This document shows positions 52,936 through 64,000 of a stretch of DNA of 64,000 bases, in pieces; positions within the stretch are counted from its first letter, which is position 1; each line of letters opens with the position of its first letter. Under the pieces are notes generated by a model, which had not been told where the DNA came from, searched no databases, and saw nothing but the letters and a program-made list of their open reading frames with translations. The stretch covers positions 1-64,000 of the forward strand of contig NZ_JACXAC010000003.1 in the NCBI RefSeq assembly GCF_014699055.1, in the 5' to 3' direction. This stretch comes from Hymenobacter armeniacus (GTDB lineage Bacteria; Bacteroidota; Bacteroidia; Cytophagales; Hymenobacteraceae). Position numbers and translations under genes: made by a program.

Positions 52936-53595
52936 TTATGAGAAGTATTCGAGGAAAATTTTGGCAAGCTACAGAATGAGGAAGTCTAGAAATGCCGAAT
53001 AGCAGCGGGCCGCATAGTTCTCCTGCTATGCCAACCACAACCAGCGGGGCGTCGCCCAACAAACGGCATAACCACGGCGGCGGATTTAAAACCGAATTGC
53101 CACCCCATGAAGGAATGCGCTGCATGTGCCGCGTGTAATGGTGCCGAAATGATAACGCTTCAAAGGCTTTTGACTGTCAATTGCGAGGTAATGCACTCAG
53201 TCAAGTCCTGGTGGGCTGCAATTGTTAGCACGAGGCTTCGTTGCAGCGCCCAAACCCGAGCGTGGCCTAGCTCGATGCCTTATCCATCAAGCGCAGCCTG
53301 CGGAGCGTGTTGAAAAAAGGCGTTGACGCCTACAAATGAGTTCAGCCGGCACTGGTGCGATGCGGAATACTACACCGATGGCAACATGCTTAGTGGGTCA
53401 GCCGCGCCCAGTTTCGGTACCTAGAGAGTGGAGCCGACCATCAGTAAGGTGGCCTCGGCCACGCGGCAAACGCCTAGTCGTCAGTACATCACGTGGTCGG
53501 ACGACGACACGGCCAATGTGGAAGAACAGCTGGAGGTACGCAACGCCGACCGGCCAGAGGCGCAGATTAAGTACATATGTCACAAACAACAAAGA
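52936..53595. other. Lower-GC gene-free region upstream of the SusC gene
   Basis: About 660 bases hold the presumed leftward promoter of the SusC operon, although no TAnnTTTG motif was found. Short frames at 53428-53613 and 53398-53592 resemble no known protein. GC content is visibly lower than in the SusC operon and stays lower rightward, so this marks the edge of the accessory region. Confidence 0.4.
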
Positions 53596-53868: not shown

Positions 53869-55743
53869 CTACAACCCTGGTTCACTGCTGGCTGCATCAC
53901 CTGCGCTATCCGGTGTAGCCTCTGCTGCAACTGGTCCGAAATGGAAATGGGACAGGCGTAACAAAACCAGTACCATCAAAACAGCTTTTTCGATGGAGTA
54001 CTGGTGCAGGTGGTGGTAATAAGCATGCGCAACGTTGTTGCGAACATTTTTACCCTCGGACAAGCAGACGTACCGAATAAAATAGCACTCGTTCTCGTCA
54101 AGCAAGTCTTTCTCCTGGGCTAGGTCGAGCAGACCATCAAAAGCGACTTCGCGTAGGTCCCGCTGCCGAGCCGTGATGGTGCTGGCGCCTGAGCGTTGTA
54201 ACAACTCCCGGAGTAGCCCTTCCATTTTCGGAGTCAACGAATCGAGGCACAGCACAAAATCTGGCTGGCCGCTGCCGTTAGCTACTTTACCAAGCTGCTG
54301 GAAGAAATTTTCTAAGCCAGGTAATATCAATGGAGCCCAAGCGTACTCAACGGTGTTGCCACTAAAGTCACTTTCGGGGAGCGGTTGAGCAAACCAACTG
54401 TGCTGCTCCAAGTAACTACGGACGGTCTCAAAAGTGAATTTGCCTTGCCGGTAGCCTTCAACGAACAGACGGCCGGTATACTGGAGCTGGAGCTGCAGCC
54501 CGAGGCTATACATTTGTTTGGCATAGCGAAGGTTGCGCTCCTCCTCATCGGCGCCGCTGGGTTCGTGCGACGTATTCCGGTTTTCGTCGATGTAAACGGT
54601 GGGGACTAAATCCAGGAAAGATGGCTGCCGCTCTTGGGCGGCTTTCTGCTTCATATCTGCGAAATCCGGGATGGCGCGCGGCGAAAAGGCTAGGTACCGA
54701 CAAACCTCATCGGCGTCAACGGCTAAAACGGCTTCGGTGTGACGTTTAATATCGTCGGCCAGCATTTGGGACTGTTCCGGGGTAAACTCGCTGGTTACAA
54801 CGCCTAGGCGGAGCTTGTCCTTAAGGGCTTGAGCCTGCTCCAGGGAGCGGGTTTCAGCTGCCTGGTCACCGGATAGCTGGTAGGCATTGGCCGCACGGGT
54901 CAGGAACTCGATGGGCATGAGGCTGGAGTCATCGGAGAGACGTTGGGCGGCCAAGGCCTCGTAGGTCTGTCCCAAACGCTGATGCCACTCACGGGGGGGC
55001 AGCTGGCTGCCTTGGGCGAAAGGCGCTGCCAGCTTACAAAGGTGCTCGCAGGTGTGATAGTCGGCAGCGGCGAAGCGTTCCTCAAACAGGCTGACAACAG
55101 TGGGTAAAATAGTGCCCGCGGGGTCATGGGCCCGAAACAGCTGAGCCTGCTCGGTGATGAGCGTGAAGATATGAGCGCGACCCTCTTGCTCGTAAGGCAC
55201 AGCGCCGGTAAAGCGGTCGAGGGCTGCCGCCGCCGTATCAGCCTCGCGGTGACGAAAGCGGGTGGAAATGGCGCAAGCTTGCCGCAAGATATCCAGACAG
55301 TCCCGGCGCCCACTGATACAGTCCGCTTGATTGAGAGCAGCGAGCAGGCTATCCAAGGCTGCTATAGCGTAGCGGCCGCTTTTAATAGGCTTGGGAGCAT
55401 TCCAGAGAATAAGGCCGTAGCGAGCCTTCAGGAAGGGATTGGTGGTTTGATCGAAGCGTTGCTGATAATAGCTTAACGCATCGCTGCCAAGGTCGTTGGG
55501 CAGGGGCGAGCCCACTGTTTGGCCTTCGGTCGTGGTGGCTGAAAACTCCCGTTCGGCGGTGCACTCCTTGAACCAGATACCCAGTGCAATCCGCTCATAT
55601 TGGACCGCTGGGGCTATTTCACTGGGAGCCGTAGCCTCTTTTAGTTCGGCAGTAAGATCACGGTCATGGATAGCATTCCATGTGTGACAGTTGGTATCTA
55701 AAAAGCTGGCTAAGTTAGCTATAGAAGTAAAAATTTCTGGCAT
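53869..55743 (-). CDS. DUF4209-like protein with HEPN-type R-x4-H motif
   Basis: The protein is 624 residues and mostly alpha-helical. The N-terminal 400 residues are rich in short helix-turn repeats (SALDSLLAAL-type, FEERFAAADYHTCEHLCKLA). The C-terminal 180 resemble DUF4209 (LPGLENFFQQLG, KMEGLLRELLQRSG, LREVAFDGLLDL). They end with GKNVRNNVAHAYYHH, in which R568-N-N-V-A-H573 is the R-x4-H signature of HEPN domains. HEPN proteins of this pattern are often RNases in defence or toxin systems, but activity is not shown here. It is flanked by the 117-bp direct repeats and follows the pPIWI-RE cassette by 481 bases in the same orientation. It is lower in GC than the chromosomal genes. Confidence 0.7.
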   Translation of the reverse strand: MPEIFTSIANLASFLDTNCHTWNAIHDRDLTAELKEATAPSEIAPAVQYERIALGIWFKECTAEREFSATTTEGQTVGSPLPNDLGSDALSYYQQRFDQTTNPFLKARYGLILWNAPKPIKSGRYAIAALDSLLAALNQADCISGRRDCLDILRQACAISTRFRHREADTAAAALDRFTGAVPYEQEGRAHIFTLITEQAQLFRAHDPAGTILPTVVSLFEERFAAADYHTCEHLCKLAAPFAQGSQLPPREWHQRLGQTYEALAAQRLSDDSSLMPIEFLTRAANAYQLSGDQAAETRSLEQAQALKDKLRLGVVTSEFTPEQSQMLADDIKRHTEAVLAVDADEVCRYLAFSPRAIPDFADMKQKAAQERQPSFLDLVPTVYIDENRNTSHEPSGADEEERNLRYAKQMYSLGLQLQLQYTGRLFVEGYRQGKFTFETVRSYLEQHSWFAQPLPESDFSGNTVEYAWAPLILPGLENFFQQLGKVANGSGQPDFVLCLDSLTPKMEGLLRELLQRSGASTITARQRDLREVAFDGLLDLAQEKDLLDENECYFIRYVCLSEGKNVRNNVAHAYYHHLHQYSIEKAVLMVLVLLRLSHFHFGPVAAEATPDSAGDAASSEPGL

Positions 55744-56224: not shown

Positions 56225-59152
56225 CTACTCTGACTCTTCTTCATCTACTTCTTCCCCACCTTCATCCTCCGCCTCAAACTCGGCCAGTTCATAGTCGGGT
56301 ACATATTGCTTGAGCACCGAAGCAAAGTGAAGCGGCCCGGGCAGCGTGGTCCAGCCACCAAAATGGTCGTAGGAAGCCCGTAAATCCTCAACGAAGCAAG
56401 CTAATTCATCCGAGGTATAGCGCGGTGTGGGTTGGTCAGGATTGGGCACCACGGTAATTTCCACCGCCACGGGCGTGGCCCAAGTACCCGTGAAAACACC
56501 CCGATTAAACACCTTGCTGTCTTTGCCCTTTAAGCTGGTAACAGGGCGGTAGCAACTCTGGGCCCGGGGCTCCGACATAAGCTTGGAGCCGAAGGACAAG
56601 TAGGTCGGGAGGAAAGGGGTGGCCTCGCTAAGATGATAGAGCTTAGCATCGGCCCAGGTTCCCACCGCACGCGTTTCTTCACCTCCTGTGGCCAAGAGTC
56701 CGTCCGCAGCAAGCACGACTTTGGGAGCATGAGCGGGTCGGATGCGCAGCAGGGAAACATGGGGCAGGCCCTTTAACAAGCCATTTCCTCCGCCCGGCAG
56801 GCTAATTGCTGCAGCGTTGCTGCCGTCTATCGCTTTGTCTGCCAGCCAGGGCCAGACGCCGCCGAGTGTGCTCATGTCAGCTAAGATGACCACATCGCGG
56901 GTGGAATGGTGGGCTGCCCGCGCGCGAAGCTGATTGAAGAAAAATTGCCCCGATTGATTTTTGCGTCCCTCCATGAGGGCAAAAAAGTTAGCTGTATTCC
57001 CTAGGTAGCTGGAACCATGACTGGCAATGCGGCGCACGGCCTGCGAAAGTGGCAACCAGATAACCTCTTCGGTTTGGGAGTGCTCCCGTTTCTGCAACAG
57101 CGTCGCGGCTAAACACTCGCCGGTCTGCGTGTCGATTTCGACCAAATAAGGGATAAAGCTGGTGTTATTGCCTTTCTGCTGTTTCTGGTTAACCCGGATA
57201 ATGCCCATGCCCAACACCACAGGGCAGAAGTCGCCAGCGGCTACGTGAGGCAGGCTTTTTGCAAGAAGGTCTTTCAGACCGTGCATACGGCCCATGGGCT
57301 TCCAAGCTAAGTCACCCCAGGCGTTGATGGTGCGGAGGCGGAAGTCGGCTACTTCGTCCTCCGTAGCCGTGCGGCCTGCTTCGGTGCTGGGGAGCAGGTA
57401 CTGGACGAGTACATTCAGGCCGTTGATGAGTTCAATGCGGCCGACTTGCTTGTTAATGGGGTCGTCGGCACCGCTGCTTCCGTCGGCATGCTTGTACTGT
57501 TTGCGGGCGATGACCAGCGCCCCATCAAGCGGAGCTTTTCCATCAGGGTCGTATTTCTTCTGCAGGCGGCTCACCCACGGCTGCCAAGCTGCTTGGCGCC
57601 GTTCAGCCCGTTCCTGGGGCCGGGCTGAACGGCCCTGGTACTGCCTTTCGCTCGGGTCCCAATTGGAAAGATGAACGCCTGAAGGGAGCTCTTCAAGGTG
57701 AACCTTGAGGGCGCGGGTGCCCAGCGCTTTTTTTAGAATATCCCGGGCCAGCTTCGCATCCTCTACCAGGCCATTCTGATAAGCAATAAGCAGGTGGTAC
57801 TGCCCATCATAGTACTGAGCCAGCCCAGTCTGGGCACGGGCCTGCCAGTCGGCGTAGAGAAGCTTTTTCCGCTTGCGGTCGGCAGCATCTTTTTTCTTCT
57901 GTTCTTGTGGACTCAAGGAAGAAGGTTTCTTTCGTTTGATAGGCGAGGGGAAGGCAACTTGCCAATCGGCGCCCAACCCAGCCAACGGGGTAGTTTCGGT
58001 TTCAACCAACCGCAATGCCCCGTTCCACGGACAGAACCCCGCCTGTGTCAGTAGTCGCCTAACGGCCGCGTAGGCATCCAAGCGGTCGAGGTCAGTGACA
58101 CCCGTGCCAGCAGTTTTGAGCTTGCTACGGCCAGGAAGCGCTTGTACTCGAACCGGGCAGCGCAGGAAGTCGTCGGCGGAAGCGCCATCCCGGCCTAGCT
58201 CCGTAGCCGTAAAATCAGCTGCTGGCGCAGGCAGAAAATACTCTGCTGCCAGGGCGGCATAGTCATCTTGCAGCACCAATCGGTTGGTGATACTATACTT
58301 GAATGCCCGCCCTGGCTGTTCGTGCGGAAAAGCAAGTCCGCTCAAACCACGACCTCGGAAACTCTTGGTCGGCGTCGTAGTCCAGTTCTGCTTGCGTACT
58401 TCCATGAACAGCACCGGCAACTTCCGGCCGGGGTAGGTTGCTACCTTCAGCGTCAGGCCCAGGCTAAACCACGCTTGATGTCGGCCGAGGGCCACAGGAA
58501 TGGGGTCCGTAACCAACCGGGCGCTGCCGTCAGCGAGGTCAGTACCAACCTCGCGGCGCAAAGCTCCTTTGCCTTCGAACACCTCTTTCCCAACCAGCAA
58601 ACTAGCCGCATAGTCGGCCAGGTCGGCAAAAGCCGTGGCCTCATACGATTTAGCAGGAACTGCCGTATTGTTTTTGCCGGTGTCCCACCCAAAAACCGGG
58701 ACGTTAGCCGCATTGGCCTCGGCGGCATCGCCGCGGATGGCCAGTTTCTGCAGTTTGCCGGCGATTACTTTTTCCGATTCGCTCAAGCCCAGCTTAGGCA
58801 GTGCCTCCCGGGTCCATTGAACAATGGCGCGATTGGCTTCGAATTTGGCCTTTTCCTCATTCGACTGGCTAAAGCATAGTAATCGATTTTCCCGCTCGCC
58901 AAATCGCATCCCTAGACCCAAGGCGTACCCCACTCGAACTGTGCCAGGGTCGTAGAGTTGAACGCGCAGGCGCAGGTCCTTGATGGGAAGCCTTTTTTCC
59001 TTCGCATCCCAATAGGCTTTTGATAGCTCGATAGCCAAATCGTGTGCCTCCTGGGTCCAACGAACCCGGGTGATGGAATAAGACGGGGTAGCGCCCTCGT
59101 TGGAGAAGGCAAAGGCCAAAAACGTGGGCGGGGGAGCGGATTTTCGGGTCAT
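56225..59152 (-). CDS. pPIWI-RE family PIWI/RNase H-fold protein
   Basis: The protein is 975 residues. The N-terminal part has a beta-rich module (ITRVRWTQEAHDLAIELSKAYW; RLRVQLYDPGTVRVGYALGLGMRFGERENRLL-type strand pattern), like the X module of pPIWI-RE proteins. A basic, Lys-rich segment lies at about 405-432. The C-terminal RNase H-like region covers about 640-950. It has CPVVLGMGIIRVNQKQ at 643-658, YLVEIDTQTGECLAATLL at 669-686, and DVVILADMSTLGGVWPWL at 753-770 with Asp759. It also has LPGPLHFASVLKQYV near 937-951, a feature I associate with the family. An acidic tail follows. I see no PAZ or MID domain of ordinary Argonautes. It starts 15 bases after the helicase stop. The predicted role is nucleic-acid-guided or R-loop-directed interference. 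Target and guide are unknown. Confidence 0.72.
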   Translation of the reverse strand: MTRKSAPPPTFLAFAFSNEGATPSYSITRVRWTQEAHDLAIELSKAYWDAKEKRLPIKDLRLRVQLYDPGTVRVGYALGLGMRFGERENRLLCFSQSNEEKAKFEANRAIVQWTREALPKLGLSESEKVIAGKLQKLAIRGDAAEANAANVPVFGWDTGKNNTAVPAKSYEATAFADLADYAASLLVGKEVFEGKGALRREVGTDLADGSARLVTDPIPVALGRHQAWFSLGLTLKVATYPGRKLPVLFMEVRKQNWTTTPTKSFRGRGLSGLAFPHEQPGRAFKYSITNRLVLQDDYAALAAEYFLPAPAADFTATELGRDGASADDFLRCPVRVQALPGRSKLKTAGTGVTDLDRLDAYAAVRRLLTQAGFCPWNGALRLVETETTPLAGLGADWQVAFPSPIKRKKPSSLSPQEQKKKDAADRKRKKLLYADWQARAQTGLAQYYDGQYHLLIAYQNGLVEDAKLARDILKKALGTRALKVHLEELPSGVHLSNWDPSERQYQGRSARPQERAERRQAAWQPWVSRLQKKYDPDGKAPLDGALVIARKQYKHADGSSGADDPINKQVGRIELINGLNVLVQYLLPSTEAGRTATEDEVADFRLRTINAWGDLAWKPMGRMHGLKDLLAKSLPHVAAGDFCPVVLGMGIIRVNQKQQKGNNTSFIPYLVEIDTQTGECLAATLLQKREHSQTEEVIWLPLSQAVRRIASHGSSYLGNTANFFALMEGRKNQSGQFFFNQLRARAAHHSTRDVVILADMSTLGGVWPWLADKAIDGSNAAAISLPGGGNGLLKGLPHVSLLRIRPAHAPKVVLAADGLLATGGEETRAVGTWADAKLYHLSEATPFLPTYLSFGSKLMSEPRAQSCYRPVTSLKGKDSKVFNRGVFTGTWATPVAVEITVVPNPDQPTPRYTSDELACFVEDLRASYDHFGGWTTLPGPLHFASVLKQYVPDYELAEFEAEDEGGEEVDEEESE

Positions 59153-59167
59153 ACGGAAAGAAGGATT

Positions 59168-62100
59168 TTATTTGGTGTGCTTGGCCACAAGGCCCTCAAT
59201 GGAATCGAAAGCAAACGCCTGGGCGAAGGGGGCGTAGAGAGCGGCCAGAACCGGGGGGAACCACTCGGGAGGGCAGTCGTCGCTCAAATAATCCGCAAAC
59301 AGCTCCTGCATGGTGACGAGCACACTGGAGCGGTTATCGTCCGGTTGGCTGCGCGGATTCTCTTCATTCCACTCGGCGCTGTGCGGGGCCCAAGCAGCGT
59401 CCACGAAGTAGACGACGGCTGGGCTACCCCCGCGGATGGCCCGGCCAATGGTTTGCAGAATGGGGATGAGTAGGTTCGCGGCAAAGGGGCGGATAAACTC
59501 CTTTGGCAGGCGGTGGGCACTCAAGGGACGGGCCAGCAGGCTCATGGCCTTTTTGTAGAGCAGATGGCGCTGCTCTGTAAATGCCTCGGCGATAGTAGCT
59601 AAGCTGCTGGTTGCAAAATCTGTTAGGTCAAAATGCTCCGTGTGCTGTGCAATAGTAGAAAGCAATAGGCTGACGTCACCTGCCGTCGGGTGAGGCCGGG
59701 TGAGAAAGTAAACCGTCCCGATAGCGGCCGTGCGATTGTCCGGGTCGTGGATATTCTCGGCATCGTTGAATACGATGTTGATGCCGCGGCCTAGCGCCGT
59801 AAAAGGGAAGACGACCACCTGCACGCCTTCATCGTCGACTAATTGCCCCAATAGTTCTACCTGCCCTTTGAGTAAGTACTGCTTGGCTGGGAGCCCATCG
59901 GCTGGACGAGTACGCACAATGCCCCGGGCGTGCTTGGCCAGGTCCTTGTTGGCCTCCTCCAACGCCTGCATGACCAGCTGCACTTGCTCGTAGGAGTTGA
60001 CAATTAACGCGGCGAGGCGTCGCCGCTTGCGGGGGCCGGCGGAAAATAAGGCGTCGCGTTCCAGTGCGGAGGTGCCCGTCGCGTCGGCGCGGGCCAGGCC
60101 GGCTACCATATGGGCCAGGTTTTCGAACTGGGCGCCCGCGGCTCCGCTGAAGCGCAAGTACTCGTGGGGCCGCTCGGGATGGGCGATGGGCTGACAACGG
60201 AGTTGAATTTGCACGGGCGCGGGCCGGGCCGAACGGAGAACGTAAGAAGGGGCTACGCCCAGGTGGTAGGCGGGCGAATCGGGAAGCCAGGAGGTCGCAG
60301 AAGCCAGGAGTACGTGCGCCCGGCCAGGGCCGTGTAGGCGGTGCAGCAACAGGCGCGGCGCGGCGTCGAGTAGCAAGTAGTCAATGACTACGTTTGGAAA
60401 CCGTTGGCCCGCCCGGCGGCCAGTCTGGCCGTAGCGGAAGCGTACGGCGCTGAACGGGCCAAGTAAATTGACCGGCACCAGCAAACGCAGCGCCTCGCTA
60501 ATCTGACCACCAACGAGGCCGTCAGGTAGTAAACCAAACTGCGAGAGCGACTGAGCAATACGAGCTAGCTTCTGGTAGGATGCGACGGCAAAGCCAACTT
60601 CAACCAGCAATTGCGCCACCGGAGCCACTAAGCTGTGATAGGTGGGAGGAACGTGTAACAGGTCGTTCAGCTGCGCGCTCAGGGCGTCCGTAGCGGCTTG
60701 CACATTTTCGTCGTGATAGAGGGCGTGCAAATAGGCAGCAAGGGCGGCAACCAGCACCTCCCAACGTTTGCGCGCTTTCTTTTCCGTCTTAAATCCTAGG
60801 CGGCGCTGCCAGTCCGCTACCCGCTGCTCCGGCCGGGCATCCCCGTAGAATGCCGCGTATACCGCACTATCCCAGAAATCATAGAGCCCAGCACGGTAAT
60901 CGGTGGATAAGGTGCTTGCCACCGGCACGCGTTCAAGCGCAAAGCGGATGAGGTAGTTGGTGGTAAGCAGTTGTTGTTCTAGTTGCTTGCCAAGTTCTTC
61001 CTGGTTAAGGCGCGATACGGTGTCGTAGAACCGAATCAGGTGCCGCTCAAACGTATTGGCCGCATACACGTGGGGCAGCAGCAGCTCCCGCTCGCGCAAG
61101 GAGGCCACGCCGCCCGTGAGGGCCATGCCCGTTACCCGCTGGGCCTGCATGTGAATGCTCTCATGCGTACCACCAAGTTCCAGGGTTAGTGCGCCCAAAT
61201 CGTCCAGCAGGCGCTGGCTTTCGTCGGCCTCATCAAAGATGAGCAGGTCGAAGTGCTCGGCCAGCAGTTCAAAGTACTGCAGCTTGTCGGTGCTGGTATG
61301 GGCTGGTACCTGCGTATCCGCGCTGCGGACGTGCCCCAGCCAAACAGGCGCTGAGACCAGTTCGCGTTGGTTTTTTACGCGCCCGCACTGGCTCCACAAG
61401 GGGCACAGCAAAGGCCGGGGATTATCCTTGCCGAGTGAATCGGGCAGGTAAAATTTTTCGCAAGGGGTTTCGGTGGGCCGCCATTCACGCCACGCAGTAG
61501 TTTCATCTACGGCAAAAGCGGGCAGCGGACACGTCTGGGCGAGCAAGTCAGCCCCGGCCCGGGTATCGGCAAAGCCTTCGTGTCCCTGCGCGGCGATGAG
61601 TTGCGCCAAGCGGTCAGCGTGACGGGCATGCGTAGCTGGTCCGCGCCCTACCAGCAAGCCGGCCTGCACCTGGTAGTTGCGTAGGCGTTCTAAGTAATCG
61701 CGCGCGGTTTCGATGCTGGTGAAAAATACAGCCACCCGGAGCCCTGTGGTGGCCAAGTGTGCGCAGAGCAGGGTAATGAGAGTGGTCTTGCCCGAGCCAG
61801 GCAAGCCGATGAGATGACGTAACCCCGTTAAGTCTAACTCCTCCGTGCGGCGCAACTGCCCTTTATCCCAGGCATCAACCACAATATCCTGTAGCCGCTT
61901 TCCCCATTCTTCCCGGGGAAAGCGCTGAGCTGCTTCGTCCTGCGCATCCATGGCCTCGGCCATTGCGCGCAGCGCCGCCAAGCTGACCGTTAACCCTTTT
62001 GCGGGAGCGCGGTGCAAGTTGTGCTGCGCTGGCGCGGGAGGGGTAAGGCCGGCGAGGCGCAAGGGGATGTTGACGGGGCTATTCTCCTCGCGCAGCCGAA

Positions 62101-62590
62101 CGACTAAGTCGTCCTCGGTTGGCGCCAGTTTACGTACGGGCTTGGTGTGCGCCAACGGAGAAAGCAATACTGCACGGGCGCGTTCGATTTCATCGTCCTT
62201 GCCTTCTTCGCGCGTAAAAAACAGGCTTGCTTCATCAATGCGATAAGCGGGGGTTACTCCCGCTTCGCGAGCAAAAGTGTAGAGGTCTCGCACCGCTTTC
62301 TGAACGGCCCGGCGGGTGGGAAGCGGCCCCGTATGGCGGCGATTTTGCGCGATGGCCTGTGCGTAGCCAGTAGCTTGATAGCTTGTTTCGAAAGCCTTGC
62401 TCCCGCTGAGTAAATGGGGGAGAAGTTCAAGATTTCTTTCGCCTAGCAATTCAAGTAGCACGCAGCTCCACTGAATGCGAAGCTGTCGCCGCCAGTCGGG
62501 TGGACTGAGCGGGTTGGCCGCGGCAGGCGCAGCTTTGGTCTTCTTTTTAGTCGAGGCGGCCACGGGTGCGTAGAATATGGATGAGGTCAT
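59168..62590 (-). CDS. XPD/DinG-like superfamily 2 helicase of the pPIWI-RE cassette
   Basis: The protein is 1140 residues. Walker A is GLPGSGKTT at 262-270. Walker B is LLIFDEADES with D453-E-A-D456. Between them lie four cysteines, at about 354, 377, 396 and 402, as CP ... C ... LLCPLWSQC. That spacing fits the Fe-S domain of XPD/DinG helicases. Motif VI is ILQTIGRAIRGG near 1044-1055. The first 200 residues are a poorly recognised N-terminal domain. Its 5' end overlaps the REase-like gene by 44 bases and the PIWI gene starts 15 bases after its stop, so the three genes form one operon. It likely unwinds DNA or an R-loop for the PIWI protein. Confidence 0.8.
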   Translation of the reverse strand: MTSSIFYAPVAASTKKKTKAAPAAANPLSPPDWRRQLRIQWSCVLLELLGERNLELLPHLLSGSKAFETSYQATGYAQAIAQNRRHTGPLPTRRAVQKAVRDLYTFAREAGVTPAYRIDEASLFFTREEGKDDEIERARAVLLSPLAHTKPVRKLAPTEDDLVVRLREENSPVNIPLRLAGLTPPAPAQHNLHRAPAKGLTVSLAALRAMAEAMDAQDEAAQRFPREEWGKRLQDIVVDAWDKGQLRRTEELDLTGLRHLIGLPGSGKTTLITLLCAHLATTGLRVAVFFTSIETARDYLERLRNYQVQAGLLVGRGPATHARHADRLAQLIAAQGHEGFADTRAGADLLAQTCPLPAFAVDETTAWREWRPTETPCEKFYLPDSLGKDNPRPLLCPLWSQCGRVKNQRELVSAPVWLGHVRSADTQVPAHTSTDKLQYFELLAEHFDLLIFDEADESQRLLDDLGALTLELGGTHESIHMQAQRVTGMALTGGVASLRERELLLPHVYAANTFERHLIRFYDTVSRLNQEELGKQLEQQLLTTNYLIRFALERVPVASTLSTDYRAGLYDFWDSAVYAAFYGDARPEQRVADWQRRLGFKTEKKARKRWEVLVAALAAYLHALYHDENVQAATDALSAQLNDLLHVPPTYHSLVAPVAQLLVEVGFAVASYQKLARIAQSLSQFGLLPDGLVGGQISEALRLLVPVNLLGPFSAVRFRYGQTGRRAGQRFPNVVIDYLLLDAAPRLLLHRLHGPGRAHVLLASATSWLPDSPAYHLGVAPSYVLRSARPAPVQIQLRCQPIAHPERPHEYLRFSGAAGAQFENLAHMVAGLARADATGTSALERDALFSAGPRKRRRLAALIVNSYEQVQLVMQALEEANKDLAKHARGIVRTRPADGLPAKQYLLKGQVELLGQLVDDEGVQVVVFPFTALGRGINIVFNDAENIHDPDNRTAAIGTVYFLTRPHPTAGDVSLLLSTIAQHTEHFDLTDFATSSLATIAEAFTEQRHLLYKKAMSLLARPLSAHRLPKEFIRPFAANLLIPILQTIGRAIRGGSPAVVYFVDAAWAPHSAEWNEENPRSQPDDNRSSVLVTMQELFADYLSDDCPPEWFPPVLAALYAPFAQAFAFDSIEGLVAKHTK

Positions 62591-64000
62591 CTACTGCCAG
62601 GACGTGAATGCGTCGGGCCAGCTTCGGATGCAGTTGTTCGCGTACTTGCTGCAAGTACTCCGGTCGATTGCGCACCTGCCGTTGAGCGACGGCGATAACC
62701 ACCTCCTCGTAGAGGTGCAGGCCCTCGACGCGATGATTGAGCTTATGGGCTAAACGCACCGGGTCGTGGTAGTCCTTGACATCAATGCCGAAGCGCAGGC
62801 CAACGGCTACGTCGCACTTGTCTTCAAACGGATAGAGGTGGACCTCTTCCGCCGGGCTGAAAATCGCGGACAGTTCCCTGTACAGGCGCAACTCTTCAAG
62901 AGCCGGGCTGCACCAGTATTGTAATAGTTCTGGCCGGGCCAGGTATGTGTCGCCCAATTTTAGGGGGTTGGGCGTAGCTTGAGGCTGCGGGTGCATGGCG
63001 CGGCAACCGCTGAGCTGGCACTGTAGAGCGCTGCCATGACGGCTATCTGCCGGATGCACCAGCGGAGCCCGGCAATGGCCACAGCGGGGGATATACCCTT
63101 GCCGGTTGGCCAGGTGAGCATGGACTGGTTCGTAGGAAACGCGCAGCCAGTCAGTAATCTCTTTATTTAACAGCGGGTGTCGGTAGACAGTAGCTAGTTC
63201 TGACCAAGTGGCCATGGGGTGAGTTGCCACGAACTGCCGGACCAGGGTATAGGCCGCCGGTCGGTCGGTGTCATCGAGTTTATCGAGGCCAGTCCGCAGT
63301 TGCTTATAAAGCTGCTTTTCAACAATGTCGGCTAGGTGACCGCCTAACTCTGCTAAATCGCCACACTCTTGAGTGGGTACATGGTATTCCTGATTGATAA
63401 GTACTACACTGGCATACCGTTCATCGGTTTGGAGAGGCAGGGGGGCCCAGTCACGTAGAGGGCGAGTGCAAAAGGCGAGTAATTCATGTACGCTAGCGCA
63501 TACGTCGACTTGTCCACTGCCAATGGCCAAGCGTGCCAGGTGCGTCTGCGCTTGACGTAACTCAAGCGGAATCGCTGTTGCCGCAATTTGGGGATTTGGA
63601 TGGCTTAATCCTACGCCCACAGGATACCCTGCCCGCACCGCTTGAAACTGTTTTAGGATACCGTAAGCCAGCAAAATAGCGGCTTGTTCTACTCGTTGAG
63701 CAGAAGGGCTGTCTGAGAGCTCAATTCGGGCTTTTTGTGTTAAAGCCGCAGCCAAGTCTTCCATGCCAAGTTCCCGGAGGCGGGCAACAATGGTGCTCAT
63801 ATTGACCGCTTCCTTTCGCTGCCAGCTCACGTAAGCCGCTTCCAGTACATTGTACCCTGTGAATTGGCGTCCTACGCGAGTAAGTATGCCTTCCTGACGC
63901 CATTTGCGCATAGCCCGTTCAGTAGGAGCCAGTACCCCCGGGCGATAATGTAGCAGGACTTCCGTTACTTCGTACGTAGCCTCGGCTGGGCTGCCACGCC
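62547..64000 (-). CDS. PD-(D/E)xK nuclease-like protein of the pPIWI-RE cassette, 5' end outside window
   Basis: The frame stays open to the right edge, so the N-terminus is missing and about 483 residues are visible. The visible N-terminal part is helical and HTH-like (APTERAMRKWRQEGILTRVG). A zinc-ribbon-like pair, RCGHC and CQLSGC, lies near 63070-63090 and 63005-63025. The nuclease-like core is CDVAVGLRFGIDVKDYHD at about 62764-62820, in which the D...D-x-K pattern (C-D-V-A-V then I-D-V-K) fits a restriction-endonuclease fold. The adjacent HKLNHRVEGLHLYEEVVIAVAQRQ continues that fold. The 3' end overlaps the helicase start by 44 bases. It should supply DNA cleavage. Identity as the REase partner of pPIWI-RE rests on this layout and context. 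Confidence 0.7.
   Translation of the reverse strand, partial: RGSPAEATYEVTEVLLHYRPGVLAPTERAMRKWRQEGILTRVGRQFTGYNVLEAAYVSWQRKEAVNMSTIVARLRELGMEDLAAALTQKARIELSDSPSAQRVEQAAILLAYGILKQFQAVRAGYPVGVGLSHPNPQIAATAIPLELRQAQTHLARLAIGSGQVDVCASVHELLAFCTRPLRDWAPLPLQTDERYASVVLINQEYHVPTQECGDLAELGGHLADIVEKQLYKQLRTGLDKLDDTDRPAAYTLVRQFVATHPMATWSELATVYRHPLLNKEITDWLRVSYEPVHAHLANRQGYIPRCGHCRAPLVHPADSRHGSALQCQLSGCRAMHPQPQATPNPLKLGDTYLARPELLQYWCSPALEELRLYRELSAIFSPAEEVHLYPFEDKCDVAVGLRFGIDVKDYHDPVRLAHKLNHRVEGLHLYEEVVIAVAQRQVRNRPEYLQQVREQLHPKLARRIHVLAVDDLIHILRTRGRLD

Follow-up and report, generated by a model that had tools for sequence, protein, structure and literature searches.

An intact pPIWI-RE cassette of Hymenobacter with a probably non-cutting PIWI protein and an operator-like palindrome

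Three adjacent genes at the right end of a 64,000-nt stretch of Hymenobacter DNA (the window, positions 1-64000 of contig C5 of genome G000, whose assembly comprises 5.28 Mb in 11 contigs) are, as judged from their sequences, a pPIWI-RE cassette, an intact Hymenobacter copy of a known and little-tested family. We somewhat favour reading it as a complete defence cassette in which a non-cutting, guided PIWI protein would recruit a helicase and a nuclease, in a manner like that of DdmDE, and in which a helix-turn-helix (HTH) would repress the operon. The computational support consists of family membership, gene order, the PIWI fold, residue conservation and a palindrome.

Layout, family and surroundings of the cassette

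Coordinates of the features considered are collected in Table 1. The initial annotation of the window had described an operon whose genes overlap by 44 bases at one junction and lie 15 bases apart at the other, and the ORF coordinates agree: the order on the minus strand is REase, DinG helicase, PIWI, the first two genes share 44 bases (62547-62590) and the last two are separated by 15 bases (59153-59167). It had also taken the cassette to be complete apart from the 5′ end of the nuclease gene, and the contig sequence past 64000 does finish that gene. Inside the window the nuclease ORF (62547-63998, minus strand) has an open 5′ end; beyond it the start would be either an ATG at contig position 64028 (493 aa) or a GTG at 64055 (502 aa), the ATG, about 28 bases beyond the window, being more likely by alignment with relatives.

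Table 1. Positions of the cassette genes, their domains and motifs, and neighbouring features (window coordinates unless a contig or locus is given)
Feature	Position	Strand	Remarks
REase-fold nuclease	62547..64000, continuing past window	(-)	first cassette gene; ORF call, Pfam, PADLOC, contig sequence
DinG-type superfamily 2 helicase	59168..62590	(-)	1140 aa, middle gene; ORF call, Pfam, PADLOC, motif alignment
pPIWI-RE protein	56225..59152	(-)	975 aa, last cassette gene; ORF call, Pfam, PADLOC, predicted-structure search
Operator-like palindrome TATTTGCCACTTTTGAATTAATAAGTGGCAAATA	contig 64048-64077		just upstream of nuclease ATG
Nuclease, N-terminal MerR-like helix-turn-helix region	63756..63938, approximate bounds	(-)	weak PbrR691 structure match
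Nuclease, helical pPIWI_RE_Y domain (PF18156)	63207..63506	(-)	Pfam
Nuclease, zinc ribbon C325-x2-C328 ... C346-x4-C351	63003..63083	(-)	invariant in 35 sequences
Nuclease, REase domain (PF18154)	62562..62897	(-)	D415, D425, K427 (GTG-start numbering)
Helicase, N-terminal pPIWI_RE_Z domain (PF18155)	62015..62506	(-)	residues 29-192, Pfam
Helicase, Walker A GLPGSGKTT	61781..61807	(-)	residues 262-270, alignment
Helicase, four-cysteine Fe-S-type region	61385..61531	(-)	C354, C377, C396, C402
Helicase, DEAD box	61223..61234	(-)	residues 453-456
PIWI protein, N-terminal pPIWI_RE_X domain (PF13111)	58364..59092	(-)	residues 21-263, Pfam
PIWI protein, first RNase H strand VVLGMGIIR	57194..57220	(-)	residues 645-653; alignment and predicted structure
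PIWI protein, RNase H/PIWI domain (PF13032)	56294..57190	(-)	residues 655-953, Pfam and alignment
PIWI protein, beta-4 Asp D759	56876-56878	(-)	within RNase H/PIWI domain, alongside signature R803 and E898
DUF7380/DUF4209 gene (HEPN-class; PDC-S39)	53869..55743	(-)	624 aa; neighbour, not judged a component; RNNVAH at residue 568
Class II pAgo (PADLOC pAgo_II, E 2.6e-241)	contig 77283-79535 (L003:5284-7536)		~13 kb from cassette
Aga_Unknown (Aga-type) partner of pAgo	L003:7206-8426		
Dsr2-like SIR2 protein	contig 80507-84583 (L003:8508-12584)		1358 aa
Upx-like SEC-C protein	contig 85353-89126 (L003:13354-17127)		1257 aa

All three proteins had Pfam matches far beyond chance and exceeding the curated cut-offs: the PIWI protein to RNaseH_pPIWI_RE (4.5e-25) and pPIWI_RE_X (2.5e-12), the helicase to pPIWI_RE_Z (3.8e-10), and the nuclease to pPIWI_RE_REase (1.6e-17) and pPIWI_RE_Y (6.4e-12). 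PADLOC placed them in PprPIWI (4e-43), PprDinG (1.7e-164) and PprRE (2.6e-40), respectively. No credible sequence match to a solved structure was found for any of them. The strict gene order of the three-gene island was set out by Burroughs, Iyer and Aravind in 2013 (PMC3702460), and the window cassette shares with that island the gene order, the tight spacing and the domains (X and RNaseH_pPIWI_RE; Z and DinG-type; HTH, Y, zinc ribbon and REase), with no feature that excludes membership. We assigned the cassette to the known family because the Pfam and PADLOC families, gene order, spacing and PIWI fold agree; the pPIWI-RE identity first proposed for the three proteins is upheld by the family matches and by the published order. 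Three features of the window copy go beyond the island description, namely the absent first catalytic Asp, a lineage-specific operator-like palindrome and a pAgo neighbour.

A scan with six DinG proteins recovered 60 loci in Bacteroidota, Cyanobacteria and Proteobacteria, and the REase-DinG-PIWI order with tight spacing was found in every locus in which all three genes were detected (about 49 relatives). Over 49 loci the pairwise distance matrices of the three proteins correlate with r 0.987-0.990, a value inflated by shared phylogeny, and exceed all 1,000 permutations for each protein pair. The closest cassettes are all from Hymenobacter, including one (L032, on contig C14) in G009 (Hymenobacter telluris), as expected from the initial placement of the DNA near this genus. 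The cassette is rare and patchy (2/59 relatives and 2/395 genomes of a phylum sample, the window genome being included in both counts), and copies also occur on plasmids; no relatives were found in phage records, viral contigs or PHROGs. In 369 genomes of the Stagnimonas class, no PIWI-RE protein beyond the starting one was recovered.

By its predicted gene content, the neighbourhood of the cassette is a defence island with mobile-element genes nearby. GC content runs at about 0.60-0.63 immediately to the left of the island and at 0.51-0.62 within it, the conserved left flank ends near 53,132, and the sequence that follows this flank in relatives was not found in 53-130 kb of the contig. A divergent Mrr_cat nuclease gene (PDC-S02-like; contig 64273-65277, L002:12274-13278) shares its upstream region with the cassette nuclease; beyond it lie BT4734-like, DUF3987 and tyrosine-integrase genes, and the pAgo_II, Dsr2 and Upx defence genes are 13-25 kb from the cassette. 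Two PIWI-fold systems, pPIWI-RE and a class II pAgo, hence occupy one neighbourhood, and in the literature searched we found no mention of a pAgo or other defence genes near a pPIWI-RE cassette. The DUF4209 neighbour was considered as a fourth component and rejected, its relatives being near the cassette in only 2 of ~64 loci; the presence of the family in 14/101 Hymenobacter genomes was likewise counted against that role. On a Hymenobacter plasmid, too, a DUF4209-related gene (L008:4889-6877) lies beside the cassette.

Other genes accompany cassettes elsewhere. PIWI-RE proteins of Proteobacteria are often 3100-3400 aa long, with a C-terminal STAND-like ATPase region of 2,150-2,460 residues (L010, L050, L051, L054, L055, L060, L063-L065, L069, L071, L072, L075) in which GGRRLGKTALL and LLDEAD are conserved; in Hymenobacter lapidarius the ATPase has a gene of its own, immediately downstream of the cassette (L016:16589-22777). 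We found no description of this fusion in the pPIWI-RE literature searched. As a missing component of the window cassette, the ATPase was not found in the window genome, an empty result that is weak evidence. In G400 the gene immediately after a PIWI-RE-type cassette (L014:1262-7561) encodes a 2099-aa helicase resembling DruE of Druantia (E 2.6e-95), and a UvrD-helicase/PD-(D/E)xK fusion lies beside three other Hymenobacter cassettes (L008:14994-18182, L012:12987-16220, L016:5481-8372) and not beside that of the window.

Folds and active sites of the three proteins

The product of 56225-59152 had been described as a 975-residue protein with an RNase H-like C-terminal region. Both PF13032 (residues 655-953) and a PDB search with the predicted structure (mean pLDDT 80.9) bear this out, since Piwi and Argonaute structures matched with E between 1.8e-10 and 1e-4 (EfPiwi 1.8e-10, TtAgo 2.1e-9, AfAgo about 1e-6 to 1e-4). 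The search also recovered 7kpv_D (5e-7), a yeast CKM chain that we take to be Med13; weaker matches, beyond the 0.001 level, were to a DdmD-DdmE complex chain (1.8e-3) and to DdmE (0.024). The protein had no Pfam Piwi (PF02171) or PADLOC pAgo match at E up to 1, and its profile comparison with the neighbouring pAgo gave no signal.

The first RNase H strand has a non-acidic residue at the position expected for the first catalytic Asp. The corresponding column (window G650) holds T, S, G, Q or Y and is acidic in 0/55 aligned PIWI proteins; two residues further on, E or D occurs in 6/55. The D759 column is Asp in 51/55, R803 is invariant (55/55), and the E898 column contains E in 40, D in 9, G in 2 and a gap in 4, with R803 and E898 equated with the published signature R and E columns by alignment position. 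The catalysis of PsPIWI-RE from Pseudomonas stutzeri requires D525 and D610, 85 residues apart (PMC10991935). In a short relative (L014) the positions matching the first catalytic Asp and D759 are also 85 apart, which supports the assignment of the catalytic columns, PsPIWI-RE being compared here by spacing and not by alignment. Of a PsPIWI-RE-type pair, the window protein has the second Asp (D759) and not the first. The absence of the first Asp is nowhere mentioned for pPIWI-RE proteins in the literature searched. Conservation of 89-96% at the MID-like residues K568, Q584 and R607 suggests that the end of a guide is bound there. We considered the window protein to be probably a non-cutting, guide-binding PIWI, and probably not a nuclease because its first RNase H strand is without an acidic residue.

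In the helicase, the Walker A motif, DEAD box and four-cysteine Fe-S spacing of the initial annotation were all located, together with a QTIGR motif at residues 1046-1050, and an alignment of six relatives showed no variation in the motifs or the four cysteines.

For the nuclease, an I-D-V-K core and a CxxC pair had been proposed. The core is present as GIDVK (D425 and K427, joined by D415), whereas the cysteines are four and not two, making a full zinc ribbon; D415, D425, K427 and the four cysteines are invariant in 35 nuclease sequences. In alignment, then, the nuclease keeps its catalytic residues, unlike the window PIWI protein. Its predicted structure (pLDDT 90.8) had no match at 0.001 in the PDB; the best matches were weak (E 0.013-0.08) and were the PD-(D/E)xK enzymes DdmD (0.013, spread over several domains) and Can2 (0.07-0.1), which, with the strong Pfam pPIWI_RE_REase match, agree with the REase fold predicted for this protein. 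A weak MerR match (PbrR691) of the model suggests an N-terminal HTH, and such domains, MerR included, occur on some pPIWI-RE nucleases (Burroughs et al., PMC3702460).

A palindrome upstream of the nuclease gene

The operator-like palindrome sits about 20-50 nt 5′ of the nuclease ATG. Its core, TTTGCCAC-N14-GTGGCAAA, is found unchanged 5′ of the L008 and L012 nuclease genes and nearly so in L017; it is absent in L016, whose nuclease is without the HTH region. Exact matches in 120 Hymenobacter genomes occurred only at the cassettes of G000 and G009; the other matches carried a mismatch, and backward-control matches were similarly frequent. Thirteen cyanobacterial cassettes have different, TTTACAT-type palindromes in the same place. 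Either motif was present in 17/38 loci whose nuclease has >=460 aa (13 cyanobacterial-type, 4 Hymenobacter-type) and in 0/15 loci whose nuclease has <=400 aa. In shuffled controls either motif appeared in 2/11,600, a comparison that is not a pre-set test, as the two patterns were written after inspecting the sequences.

The palindrome is linked to nuclease length and hence to the N-terminal HTH. Burroughs et al. (PMC3702460) left open whether this HTH is an autoregulator or a specificity determinant, and the recurrence of palindromes upstream of HTH-bearing nucleases favours autoregulation; from its sequence and position, the element looks like the operator of the nuclease's own HTH. No mention of an upstream palindrome in pPIWI-RE cassettes was found in the literature searched. 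Its distance from the ATG would also suit an alternative in which the palindrome is no DNA operator but folds in the nuclease mRNA as a hairpin that covers the site of ribosome binding, and in L008 and L012 the arms do extend into near-perfect longer inverted repeats that differ between the two loci by compensated changes. We consider a hairpin unlikely, since the palindrome tracks nuclease length and the HTH (none of the 15 loci at <=400 aa) and since its half-sites are spaced by 22 bp, close to two turns of the helix.

Several cassettes with an HTH-less nuclease have a separate gene for a ~290-aa regulator, ~3.3 kb upstream of the DinG midpoint (L010, L052, L054, L055, L056, L060, L075; most divergent), annotated as WYL in L010 and L011.

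Proposed mechanism and alternatives

In the reading that we favour, the MID pocket of the PIWI-RE protein would take up a short guide of nucleic acid, and the guide would pair with invading DNA (a plasmid, phage or conjugative element). The protein would mark the target instead of cutting it, because its own active site is probably dead; the Fe-S DinG-type helicase would be recruited, open the DNA and travel along it, and the zinc-ribbon PD-(D/E)xK nuclease would cut the target DNA. The N-terminal HTH of the nuclease would repress the operon through the palindrome just upstream of the nuclease gene. We infer the type of guide, the target, the recruitment, the cutting and the repression. A guided, RNA-dependent restriction of invading DNA was predicted for pPIWI-RE cassettes in 2013 (PMC3702460).

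Guided recruitment by a non-cutting PIWI protein was rated highest because the cassette has DdmDE-type parts on three chains. DdmDE consists of a catalytically inactive pAgo (DdmE) and an SF2 helicase carrying a PD-(D/E)xK nuclease (DdmD), and the window cassette has a probably inactive PIWI-fold protein, an SF2 helicase and a PD-(D/E)xK nuclease, although the fold matches to DdmE and DdmD chains are weak. The cassette differs in being three polypeptides and not two, with helicase and nuclease in separate genes, in its DinG-type helicase with Fe-S-type cysteines and its nuclease with HTH and zinc ribbon, and in that Pfam and PADLOC put its proteins in the pPIWI-RE/Ppr families; DdmDE is a mechanistic analogue of it from outside the family. 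The MID-PIWI fold of the window PIWI is also that of class II prokaryotic Argonautes, but the window protein has an X domain in place of PAZ/N. We hold more tentatively, as a possibility short of even, the specific version in which the cassette is a counterpart of DdmDE split over three polypeptides, with a dead, probably RNA-guided PIWI protein directing a Fe-S DinG helicase and a separate nuclease against plasmids or phage DNA, and with the operon kept repressed by the nuclease's HTH and its operator until invasion.

The initial statement that very little has been shown experimentally holds in that the family is little-tested, but the 2022 biochemistry of PsPIWI-RE (PMC10991935) must be added to it. 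That protein, whose gene likewise neighbours dinG and a gene for a nuclease, carries both catalytic residues, D525 and D610, the first of which is missing from the window PIWI, and is an RNA-guided DNA nuclease in vitro; deletion of piwi-re in P. stutzeri increased ciprofloxacin sensitivity and affected cell division, which is not a defence phenotype (PMC10991935). Given this cutting and this phenotype, the role of the window cassette could differ. The literature searched yielded no experiments on the window cassette or on any other from Bacteroidota.

A serious rival, though we rate it improbable, is the R-loop-sensing restriction of Burroughs et al. (2013), in which a PIWI-RE protein without a preloaded guide senses DNA-RNA hybrids in invading DNA under active transcription, DinG is brought to the R-loop and the REase cuts at that site. 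DinG-like helicases act on R-loops, the nuclease is present without a methylase and is made first (PMC3702460), and PsPIWI-RE cleaves only when guide and target pair as DNA/RNA hybrids (PMC10991935); against this, the conserved MID-pocket-like K568/Q584/R607 suggest binding of a guide end, and host R-loops would have to be spared. The P. stutzeri deletion phenotype would fit a host role, in which the cassette proteins deal with conflicts of replication or transcription, or maintain the genome, in place of invader defence, but this is decidedly unlikely for a cassette that is rare and patchy, has GC below the host sequence to its left, lies among defence-island and mobile-element genes and has plasmid-borne copies. 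Least probable of all is a PIWI-RE protein that does the guided cutting on its own, the helicase and the REase serving guide generation or clean-up, as PsPIWI-RE, which needs both D525 and D610, and the retained D759 might suggest, because strand 645-653 of the window protein is without an acidic residue and Asp/Glu is missing at the aligned position in 55/55.

The only wet-lab study of the family found in the literature searched concerns the nuclease-active Pseudomonas protein. The Hymenobacter copy is intact; its PIWI site is predicted to be dead, its helicase and nuclease motifs are preserved and it has a candidate operator, all of which makes guided recruitment directly testable, and Hymenobacter, a genus with many cultured species, favours such tests. 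The cassette suggests that the combination of guide protein, helicase and nuclease may have arisen in more than one arrangement.
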